Source: Priestia megaterium (lineage in GTDB: Bacteria > Bacillota > Bacilli > Bacillales > Bacillaceae_H). From it: a DNA stretch of 64,000 bases. Positions 38,785 through 61,948 of the stretch are shown in pieces. How positions within the stretch are numbered: position 1 is the first letter of the stretch; each line of letters opens with the position of its first letter. The DNA lies in the NCBI RefSeq assembly GCF_009497655.1, contig NZ_CP023318.1, forward strand, positions 1-64,000, written 5' to 3'. Below the pieces are notes generated by a model. The model was not told the origin of the DNA. It saw nothing but the letters and a program-made list of their open reading frames with translations, and made no database searches. Position numbers and translations under genes: made by a program.

Positions 38785-39256
38785 TTAAAATCGTTTTACT
38801 CTTCCATTGAATCGTTCACCAAAATACGTTCCTTTTGCCATACTTGCGATGGCTACACCTGTTTTTCCTTGGCAGCCTAAAAACTGATTATTGCCAACGT
38901 ATATCCCAACGTGACCGTCTATCTTATAGGTGTCAAAAAACACCACATCCCCAGGCTTCATGTCTTTTGGATTAATTGCTTGCCCTTGTGTTTTGAGTGT
39001 ATCGGTTGTTACACCCGACATTGGACCAACATTCATTCCTACCTGTTCGAATGCCCATCTGACAAAACTTGAACAATCAAAACGTCCTGCGTTAATATCA
39101 GATTGAGAGCGTCCACCACCAAATACATAGCGTGTTTTACCAATCAACGTTTTGCCTGCGTCAATAACTTTCACACCCGATTTACCGCCACTTCCACCAC
39201 TCGCAGGAGCAGCCGGTTTTCCGTCAGCTGTGATCGTTCCCGTATAATATTTTAAA
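38785..39256 (-). CDS. 3' exon: NlpC/P60 domain of the split peptidoglycan hydrolase
   Basis: The reading frame from the intron junction gives LKYYTGTITADGKPAAPASGG (a linker) and then an NlpC/P60 domain: KTRYVFGGGRSQSDINAGRFDCSSFVRWAF (catalytic Cys in DCSS), GDVVFFDTYKIDGHVGIYVG (catalytic His), and a third polar residue near the end. This is the C-terminal half of a two-domain enzyme like CwlT of ICEBs1. The N-terminal half is at 42043-42683. A GTG at 39174 could start the domain alone, but it would lack a signal anchor. Confidence 0.8.
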
Positions 39257-39311
39257 GTGGGTCGAAGAGAGGCGAGTTGTCATAAGACACTTTTCCTCTC
39301 AGCTCCCGTAA

Positions 39312-39345
39312 GAACCGTACGAGCATGTTTCCATGCATACGGCTC
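39312..39345 (-). ncRNA. Group II intron domain V
   Basis: On the minus strand GAGCCGTATGC and GCTCGTACGGTTC form the 34-nt catalytic hairpin with a GAAA tetraloop and the AGC/CGT-type bulge positions expected of domain V. Confidence 0.88.
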
Positions 39346-39364
39346 CCGACTAAAACCTAAATTA

Positions 39365-59510: not shown

Positions 59511-59545
59511 TGTACATAAAACCCTAATAAATGGTGGTGGATTAC

Positions 59546-60112
59546 ATGAATAATTCTGAAAGTGCAAACTTCATTGGTGTACCAGAAGCATCTGAATATA
59601 CCAATATTCCTCCTGAAACATTAAAAAGGTATTTAATTAACCATGAACAGTTTTTGAATTTCAAAAAAGAAGGTAGACGTTATAAAATAAGTATTGAATC
59701 GCTAGATCTATTAAAGAAAATCCGTGAACTCTATAGCGAGGGGTTACTAAAAGAAGATGTAAACGATAATTTGGCAAGTGATGGACTTCCTATAACTATT
59801 ACAGTCAAAAATCAAGAAGAAAAAGGTTCTATCTCTATAAACGATGAACTAAGTGAAATAAAAAAGATGTTACAACAACAAGAACAACAGATGACACAGC
59901 AGATGCAATTTAATCAAAAGTTAGTAGAAGAGTTACAGAAAGTTAGCCAAACCAATCAAGAATTAAAACAAATGATAAATAGAAAAGATACTGAGTTGAT
60001 AGGAGAGTTAAGAAAAGGATTATCAGAAAGTAAAAGGATGATTGAAGAAGCTTCTGCTAGTGCAGAGTTAGAAAAGAAAAAAACATGGTGGGAAAAATTA
60101 ATAGGTAAATAA
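59546..60112 (+). CDS. MerR-like coiled-coil protein (DUF3967-like)
   Basis: A 188-aa protein. The N-terminus (NFIGVPEASEYTNIPPETLKRYLINHEQFLNFKKEGRRYKISIESLDLLKKI) is a MerR-type HTH, the middle a Gln-rich coiled coil (QQQEQQMTQQMQFNQKLVEEL), and the tail ends in KKTWWEKLIGK as in DUF3967 proteins of Bacillus plasmids. ATG 59546 lies after GGTGGTGG; the preceding frame to 59531 belongs to the leader. It is the prime candidate to bind the 42-bp array just upstream, with a role in replication or partition. Confidence 0.78.
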   Translation: MNNSESANFIGVPEASEYTNIPPETLKRYLINHEQFLNFKKEGRRYKISIESLDLLKKIRELYSEGLLKEDVNDNLASDGLPITITVKNQEEKGSISINDELSEIKKMLQQQEQQMTQQMQFNQKLVEELQKVSQTNQELKQMINRKDTELIGELRKGLSESKRMIEEASASAELEKKKTWWEKLIGK

Positions 60113-60113
60113 T

Positions 60114-60161
60114 AAAAAGCTTCTACTAGTGGGTCAGTCCCCGAGATAGTAGAAGCTTTTT
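60114..60161 (+). terminator. Perfect 15-bp terminator
   Basis: AAAAAGCTTCTACTA and TAGTAGAAGCTTTTT pair around 18 nt. Confidence 0.85.
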
Positions 60162-60220
60162 ATTGTTATGTTGTAACTTGATTATAAAATCCGTCGATTA
60201 TAACACATTTTTAATATATT

Positions 60221-60339: not shown

Positions 60340-60369
60340 TTGAATTATGAGATTAATTAACGCTATAAT
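60340..60369 (+). promoter_or_regulatory. Predicted promoter of the HTH/rep-like gene
   Basis: TTGAAT, 18 bases, TATAAT. RNA would start at about 60376 and have a 270-base leader. Confidence 0.5.
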
Positions 60370-60400
60370 AAAACTAACAAAAATGACCGGAATAGAAAAA

Positions 60401-60483
60401 AGACTTCAACTGTTTAAGTAGTGCGACCAACACACTTAAACCGTTCCCCCTAATTGCGGTAGGGAAAACACTTGTCGAAGTCT
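60401..60483 (+). ncRNA. Three-way-junction leader RNA
   Basis: AGACTTC and GAAGTCT close the structure; inside are a long hairpin (GTTTAAGT and GTG pairing with CAC and ACTTAAAC around CGACCAA) and a short one (CCCTA/TAGGG around ATTGCGG). All stems are perfect except one base. It probably acts as a regulatory leader or as an antisense-RNA target. Confidence 0.6.
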
Positions 60484-60579
60484 CTTGTTAATAGATTTAG
60501 TTTTCTATAAAGTAAAACTTATGTTTTTATTTTATATGAAATTAACATCTATTTCAAGGGCTTAGTTCATCAAAATCAA

Positions 60580-60619
60580 GGCATTGTTTTCCTTTCTTAA
60601 GGGAAATAGTGTCTTTTTT
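60580..60619 (+). terminator. Attenuator-like terminator ahead of the rep-like gene
   Basis: GGCATTGTTTTCC pairs with GGGAAATAGTGTC (G-U pairs allowed) and T6 follows. It lies 12 bases upstream of the ribosome site AAGGAG, inside the leader, so it can only work by premature termination. Confidence 0.6.
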
Positions 60620-60646
60620 GTGTTCCTTGAAGGAGAAGATGAACAA

Positions 60647-61948
60647 ATGACAAAAATATTGACCTGCTATTTAAAAGATGTAGACACCTTCAACGGAAGG
60701 TTTAAGTGGTTATGGAAGAATAAATCCATACTTCGGAAAAAGAAAGAAGAGTTTTTAGAAATTATTCGTACCCATTACAAACAGAACCAATCAGCCATAC
60801 ATAAAGAATTTCCTAAAAAAAGAATGGAAATGCTCGATCATGTCATCTATAACCTAGTGGCTACAGGCATCCAAGCCATTCGTTCTGAAACGCTCATGAA
60901 GAAATTTGAAGTTTCTAAAAGTACGGTTTCTCGTTTTGTACGTTCGTTAAAAGCGACGCCGTTTGTCCTTGTAGCACGTTACATTAAAGAGGATGCAACA
61001 GGTACTCATCCTGATAGCTATGTGTTTATTCTTAAAAGCCATAAGAACTTTAATCACATTTGCGAAGAAATCTTTTTTGCCCATGATACAACAGGTATAC
61101 AAACGGTCCAACAAGAAGAAATGACAACTCCTGTGACGCTTCCTGTGATGCATCCTGAAAGTGTTGAAAACGTTGATACAACAAGCTTAAAGGCCGATAA
61201 ATCATCTGGTGCCTTTATTAACCTTGATTTACCTGTAAATCATATAAATAATCATTTAATGTCTGCTTCACAGTCATTTACTTATATCAAAGGTGTTCCT
61301 AAGAAAGTCAATCAAGTCTACGCAGGTAAGTATGGTCATCAATTAAAAGACTTTTATGCTCGCATTCAAAATGCTGCAAAAACCGTCAAACGAGATACAG
61401 AGATTGATATTACTAAAGGGCAAGTACATGAAATTGCGTATACATCTATTATTGGATTAGACAAATATGTACATGAAGCTAATCATAAAGGCAATTCTTT
61501 GTCCTTAGATAATATGTGCCAATTACTCTATAAAATTGCGAAAAACCAATTCTATCAGTTGGTTGATCCTAAAAACCAGGATTATTCATCAGTATATCCA
61601 ACTCATGAGGAAGTTATACATAAAGAAGAGTCATCAACAAAATTGTTTATACCAAAACATATTATCCGTAAAGAAATCGTTCCTGATTGGTTACAGGCTG
61701 AGCAGGATCAAGAGAAGGGTACAAAAAAAGTAGAACTATCTTTAGAACAACAGCTTGAAATGATTCAGTTAAAACAAGACCTAGGACAAGAACTTACACC
61801 AGAAGAAGAGAACTTGCTGCAAGAACATTGCTCAACATACAGTACGTTAGAAATGGCGAAACTGAAACAAGATTTAGGACAAGCATTAACACCTGAGGAG
61901 CAGAAATTGTTGCATCAACATGTTAAATTAAAGGAACCAGCTTCTTAA
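60647..61948 (+). CDS. HTH protein, candidate plasmid replication initiator
   Basis: A 433-aa protein. The N-terminal part is basic (FNGRFKWLWKNKSILRKKKEEFLEIIRTHYKQ); LYNLVATGIQAIRSETLMKKFEVSKSTVSRFVRSLK is a helix-turn-helix. A central segment is hydrophilic; near the end, LKQDLGQELTPEEENLL and LKQDLGQALTPEEQKLL repeat. ATG 60647 follows AAGGAG at 11 bases; the frame is open to TTG 60584 inside the attenuator. The iterons upstream and the structured leader favour a replication role, but I cannot assign a Rep family, and a transcription regulator is possible. Confidence 0.6.
   Translation: MTKILTCYLKDVDTFNGRFKWLWKNKSILRKKKEEFLEIIRTHYKQNQSAIHKEFPKKRMEMLDHVIYNLVATGIQAIRSETLMKKFEVSKSTVSRFVRSLKATPFVLVARYIKEDATGTHPDSYVFILKSHKNFNHICEEIFFAHDTTGIQTVQQEEMTTPVTLPVMHPESVENVDTTSLKADKSSGAFINLDLPVNHINNHLMSASQSFTYIKGVPKKVNQVYAGKYGHQLKDFYARIQNAAKTVKRDTEIDITKGQVHEIAYTSIIGLDKYVHEANHKGNSLSLDNMCQLLYKIAKNQFYQLVDPKNQDYSSVYPTHEEVIHKEESSTKLFIPKHIIRKEIVPDWLQAEQDQEKGTKKVELSLEQQLEMIQLKQDLGQELTPEEENLLQEHCSTYSTLEMAKLKQDLGQALTPEEQKLLHQHVKLKEPAS

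Follow-up and report, generated by a model that had tools for sequence, protein, structure and literature searches.

Between the promoter of a rep gene carried by a Priestia megaterium plasmid and the ribosome site of that gene lies a long structured leader, and the question raised by this locus is what decides whether the gene is read, an antisense RNA or a ligand. The gene is found in a stretch of 64,000 nucleotides (the window), which is part of a 139,750-base contig (G000:C2). Its product, whose relatives on plasmids are annotated 'replication protein', shares 73-93% identity with the Reps of other Priestia plasmids, through which, and not through direct comparison with the published RepM, it receives its RepM-type label. 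As in RepM-type replicons, a RepM-like initiator is thus encoded directly 3' of the leader. The structure predicted for RepM is of low confidence (mean pLDDT 57), with a winged-helix-like part at the N-terminus only, and it gave no significant match in the PDB. The leader itself is 100% identical to those of two P. aryabhattai plasmids, and its relatives occur in 226 plasmid records, 215 of them from Priestia. Theta replicons of the RepM type were reportedly described in B. megaterium QM B1551 by Stevenson et al. in 1998 (as cited in PMC8390425); the QM B1551 plasmids pBM500, pBM600 and pBM700 carry the same leader, and pBM500 and pBM700 have the same rep type as the window plasmid (rep_cluster_385).

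The surroundings of rep hold several other elements. Directly upstream, on the plus strand (59531-60112), lies a gene whose product is glutamine-rich, probably forms a coiled coil, has a C-terminal WWEKLIG and weakly matches excisionase/MerR-type helix-turn-helix (HTH) proteins. Several related plasmids have a MerR- or HTH-annotated gene at the corresponding position, and the product may possibly be a second copy regulator or a segregation protein. Between this gene and rep (60114-60164, plus strand), the hairpin AAAAAGCTTCTACTA...TAGTAGAAGCTTTTT is likely to be a bidirectional terminator; its weak 25-bit match to the antisense model described below probably comes from the stem and U-run alone. 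The part of rep that encodes the C-terminus of the protein (61757-61921, plus strand) contains a 72-nt direct repeat, 72% identical and with a spacing of 93, which could be an iteron or a repeated protein motif. Just downstream of rep, the minus-strand segment 62015-62099 matches the Rfam tRNA model (48.8 bits, 85 nt) with no ARAGORN call, and is an aberrant tRNA-like sequence. A group II intron match lies farther away (39256-39347, minus strand).

The plus-strand features of the locus are as follows.

60340-60369, plus: promoter-like sequence of rep, TTGAAT-18-TATAAT, with a predicted start at about 60376
60376-60646, plus: leader of the rep mRNA (target RNA)
60388-60404, plus: CGGAATAGAAAAAAGAC, which could pair with 60611-60626 as a second antiterminator strand, with weaker evidence than the strand at 60461-60470
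60401-60410, plus: 5' strand of P1 in the sense RNA; on the minus strand, 3' arm of the terminator stem of the antisense RNA
60412-60441, plus: hairpin P2, with hypervariable loop A within a conserved stem
60424-60430, plus: loop A, in P2, CGACCAA (UUGGUCG in the antisense RNA)
60448-60464, plus: hairpin P3, which carries loop B
60453-60459, plus: loop B, in P3, ATTGCGG
60461-60470, plus: putative antiterminator (pre-emptor) strand AGGGAAAACA, near-invariant (0.05 bits), pairing with 60585-60594
60474-60483, plus: 3' strand of P1 in the sense RNA
60578-60619, plus: attenuator, an intrinsic terminator with a U-run (stem 60578-60615, 17 pairs including G-U)
60585-60594, plus: segment TGTTTTCCTT of the terminator 5' arm, partner of the antiterminator
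60611-60626, plus: end of the terminator 3' arm with the U-run and UUCC, complementary to 60389-60404
60630-60635, plus: Shine-Dalgarno sequence AAGGAG
60647-61948, plus: rep gene, 433 residues, RepM-type initiator

The anatomy proposed for this strand in the original prediction was largely borne out. The rep promoter is present, also in the alignment of the relatives, and the three-way junction at 60401-60483 was recovered with a free energy of -24.4 kcal/mol (z -3.2), a value equaled in 1 of 200 shuffles; for the whole leader, z is -5.1. A G-U-containing terminator does precede the ribosome site, at a distance from AAGGAG of 10 bases and not of 12 as had been stated. Its hairpin and U-run are kept throughout the relatives, and it is formed in the full-length transcript fold of 43/43 of them.

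On the opposite strand, two further elements were identified.

60557-60529, minus: antisense promoter TTGAAA-17-TAAAAT (-35 at 60557-60552, -10 at 60534-60529; score 10/12), with a predicted start at about 60522
60522-60395, minus: predicted antisense RNA (countertranscript) of about 128 nt, with a three-way junction and a 3' U-run

A search for an antisense promoter in 60400-60490 had been suggested; one is present, inside the rep leader and convergent with the rep promoter as judged from the sequence, but it lies outside that range. In the alignment of the relatives, its hexamers have an entropy of 0.22-0.28 bits, as against 0.88 in the spacer, and both spacer and flanks drift. A minus-strand promoter scoring at least 9/12 is found in 57 of 64 relatives, with a mean of 9.6 compared with 7.4 in shuffles. 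Read on the minus strand, the junction reaches -36.5 kcal/mol (z -5.2, 0/200 shuffles) and is more stable than its sense counterpart. Its P1 becomes a continuous 10-bp stem with one G-U pair, followed by a U-run (60401-60395), and the antisense RNA would thus have an intrinsic terminator of its own.

Which of the two strands is under structural selection can be read from the relatives. What pairs as G-U on one strand reads as an A-C mismatch on its complement, and the minus-strand stems of 43 distinct relatives contain 86 G-U as against 5 A-C, which argues for selection on the minus-strand RNA. The minus strand is also more stable than the plus strand in 43/43 relatives, by 13 kcal/mol on average. 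Compensatory changes affect 14 of 25 minus-strand pairs in these 43 sequences, a number reached in 0/500 shuffles, and 22 of 28 pairs in a wider set of 65 sequences whose alignment was fitted to a covariance model (226 cells, compared with 42 in shuffles). Scored with the covariance model, the minus strand reaches 107 bits and the plus strand 13 bits. These comparisons indicate that structural selection acts on the minus-strand RNA.

The near-invariant strand at 60461-60470, part of hairpin P3, offers a way in which this RNA might control the attenuator. In a transcript that has just reached 60594-60605, its pairing with the terminator 5' arm is the lowest-energy fold, and the terminator is favored once the 3' arm is out. 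At this early point, the antiterminator has a probability above 0.5 in 24 of the 43 relatives only, as calculated for equilibrium folds. In distant relatives, strand and arm covary: ACGATAAACA is found with TGTTTATCGT, ACGACAAACA with TGTTTGTCGT, and AGGGCAAACA with TGTTTGCCTT. When 15 distinct strands were matched to their own terminator arms, 8.8 of 10 positions paired, compared with 7.5 (sd 0.22) after permutation and with 0/50000 permutations as high, in a test that takes no account of phylogeny. The covariation in the distant relatives is the strong evidence for the proposed antiterminator.

Loops A and B are among the most variable positions, with 1.2-1.3 bits as against 0.05-0.5 in the P2 and P3 stems. 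UUGG, which resembles a YUNR motif, occurs in many A loops, on either the antisense or the sense RNA. Plasmids that share a cell were never seen with the same loop A: over all genomes read, none of the 75 pairs within a genome (0 of 75) had identical A loops, whereas 4.0 were expected (P=0.01, kinship ignored). For loop B alone, no significant exclusion was found among co-resident pairs (P=0.25). Genome G008 holds eight replicons together, the A loops of which are all different, and co-resident Reps can be up to 94% identical yet unlike in both loops. Identical loops do recur between genomes. Three common A loops are present in 11, 23 and 16 plasmid records, at one place per record; one ambiguous record, when checked, proved to come from the separately named strain B1, and the other records were judged by accession and source only. 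The hypervariable loops look like tags by which as many as eight related plasmids could coexist in a single cell. Since the loops diversify along plasmid lineages, the co-residence pattern may owe something to Rep-origin specificity or be explained by it. Exact inversions of loop A between plasmids were also observed, such as CGACCAA in the window and TTGGTCG at L009; four such pairs are not above the column-shuffle null (4 vs 2.7, P=0.2). Inversion between stem arms would be an easy route to new loop specificities.

The switch may involve a second helix. Segments 60389-60404 and 60611-60626 are complementary at 15/16 positions, and in 24 diverged loci the match is 14.25/19 for own partners compared with 13.29/19 for permuted ones (1/50000), a difference that comes partly from A-run facing U-run and ignores kinship. 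When the antiterminator was imposed on the folds, 50 of 57 loci formed this helix. In the computed folds, the mean unpaired probability of AAGGAG goes from 0.18 in the terminated state to 0.63 in the antiterminated state, an increase seen in 47 of 57 loci. It is plausible from these models that the 5' leader also captures the terminator 3' arm and frees the Shine-Dalgarno sequence. Folds that hide AAGGAG on termination and free it on antitermination would also be expected if the antisense RNA acted mainly on translation, by sequestering or exposing that sequence as in pSK41. This is unlikely, given that conservation of the terminator, hairpin and U-run alike, extends throughout and goes beyond the needs of a masking hairpin, and effects on translation and termination can coexist.

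A structured leader whose terminator adjoins the Shine-Dalgarno sequence might also be taken for a ligand-sensing riboswitch or a protein-binding leader. Its exposed loops are hypervariable while the stems are kept, structural selection falls on the minus strand, and the antisense promoter and terminator are conserved, all of which makes this extremely unlikely. The junction had been said to resemble no class that could be named; in agreement with this, it has no Rfam match above the curated gathering thresholds; the matches at E up to 10 are all implausible, and no ctRNA family is among those listed. Inverted-repeat arms would suit a DNA element too, such as Rep binding sites or a cruciform origin, for which the RNA anatomy would be incidental. 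The G-U over A-C asymmetry would be unexpected in a strand-symmetric DNA element, and the promoter hexamers and the antiterminator are independently conserved or covarying; this explanation is very improbable.

We are highly confident that the region is the copy-control locus, and probably the incompatibility locus, of a RepM-type plasmid, and that it works by antisense-driven attenuation. The antisense RNA would be made constitutively, from about 60522 to 60395 on the minus strand, in proportion to the number of plasmid copies. In the nascent rep mRNA, the 3' strand of P3 (60461-60470) would grip the emerging terminator 5' arm (60585-60594) and permit read-through into rep. By recognizing the two exposed loops and pairing with 60395-60522, the antisense RNA would occupy 60461-60470, upon which the terminator would form and transcription would stop before rep. 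More copies would then yield more antisense RNA and less Rep, and the loops would decide which antisense RNA recognizes which mRNA. The most likely role of the antisense RNA and the RNA switch is to reduce replication as the copy number rises. Sequence comparison supports the antisense promoter and terminator, the minus-strand structure, the covarying antiterminator, the attenuator and the hypervariability of the loops, and from these we infer transcription of both RNAs, their binding, termination efficiency, copy control and incompatibility. The original prediction of attenuation-based copy control of rep by an antisense RNA or a ligand gains support from the comparative evidence. Between its two candidates, the antisense RNA is favored on account of that promoter and terminator, the selection on minus-strand structure, the hypervariable loops and the covarying antiterminator.

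The distribution of the antisense RNA was investigated by searching sampled genomes with a covariance model built for it, R1. Within the same order, R1 matched 29 of the 397 genomes sampled, which belong to 17 of 135 genera. A draw of 398 genomes from the class gave 6 with a match, three of them outside the order, and the only genomes matched in a phylum-wide draw were two that had already turned up in the order. The antisense RNA precedes at least two groups of Reps, unlinked at E 1e-3, one of which adjoins ParM-type partition genes. The 395-residue Rep of a B. velezensis relative was considered as the RepN of pLS32; Reps of the pLS32 type have a RepA_N domain (PMC4490491), for which this protein has no match, and the identification was dropped. 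A phage origin was rejected, with no match in phage records. Some matches lie on chromosome-size contigs (G343:C1, G362:C1, G268:C1 and G012:C1; loci L090, L105, L106 and L088), three of the four being followed by shorter Reps that start with MKKRI.VIA; these copies are possibly integrated plasmids or conjugative elements. Two Priestia-like RepM replicons (JARUXA010000043.1 and JARUXA010000064.1; L047 and L048) come from an assembly labeled Sphingomonas sp. PsM26, which is likely to be contaminated or mislabeled. In the open-licence literature, no description of an antisense RNA or of an attenuator in RepM replicons was found, and an earlier description elsewhere is possible. Widespread but uncatalogued, and present in 29 of the 397 genomes sampled from the order, the family deserves an Rfam entry.

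A wider proposal, which we put forward tentatively and rate at slightly less than an even chance, is that of an uncatalogued countertranscript family that serves at least two Rep families and is used by many Bacillaceae as well as other Bacilli. In its bipartite antiterminator, the P3 3' strand would take up the 5' arm of the terminator, and the extreme 5' leader the 3' arm together with the U-run and UUCC, by which a single switch would remove the terminator and free the Shine-Dalgarno sequence. Its two loops would make up a natural code with more than 30 variants, of which up to eight would be orthogonal in one cell. P. megaterium strains hold many large plasmids with near-identical replicons, and the loops provide a directly testable answer to their coexistence. 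The family also constitutes a natural set of matched antisense/attenuator pairs, with possible use as orthogonal RNA switches and in compatible vectors; repM vectors are already in use in P. megaterium (PMC8390425).

Similar arrangements are known from other plasmids. In the Inc18 plasmids pIP501, pAMbeta1 and pSM19035, the rep leader likewise contains a convergent promoter that drives an antisense RNA, with an attenuator before the Shine-Dalgarno sequence; the antisense RNA, RNAIII of 136 nt, induces premature termination (PMC4981023). The pAMbeta1 leader shares with that of the window an A-run, a closing stem, two hairpins, a minus-strand promoter (TTGAAA-17-TATAAT) and an attenuator; its antisense strand, folded here, gave a U-run-ended three-way junction more stable than that of the sense strand. 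In contrast, its annotated initiator is a primase C-terminal-domain protein, and an XRE-type CopR was not identified here, where the gene at 59531-60112 has only its weak MerR/excisionase-like match. R1 found nothing in pAMbeta1 at E 10, so that common descent is not shown despite the strikingly similar layout; with no detectable RNA homology, the RNA is filed by mechanism as a new family and not in the RNAIII family. In pT181, a pre-emptor strand of the leader pairs with the terminator 5' arm unless the antisense RNA blocks it (PMC5703833), and the same pairing is proposed here. The pT181 plasmids differ in being rolling-circle Rep_trans plasmids, and their model RF00242 (ctRNA_pT181) had no match in the genome, although its control gave no match anywhere either. 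RNAI of pSK41, representing the RepA_N plasmids, has two stem-loops and, as an antisense RNA, controls rep by way of the leader (PMC5703833), as would the RNA of the window; it masks the ribosome site without attenuation, whereas the window has a conserved terminator and U-run. With antisense promoter, antisense RNA terminator, attenuator and pre-emptor pairing all present at the sequence level, the window leader is supported as a case of countertranscript-driven transcriptional attenuation, the mechanistic class of pT181 and pIP501.
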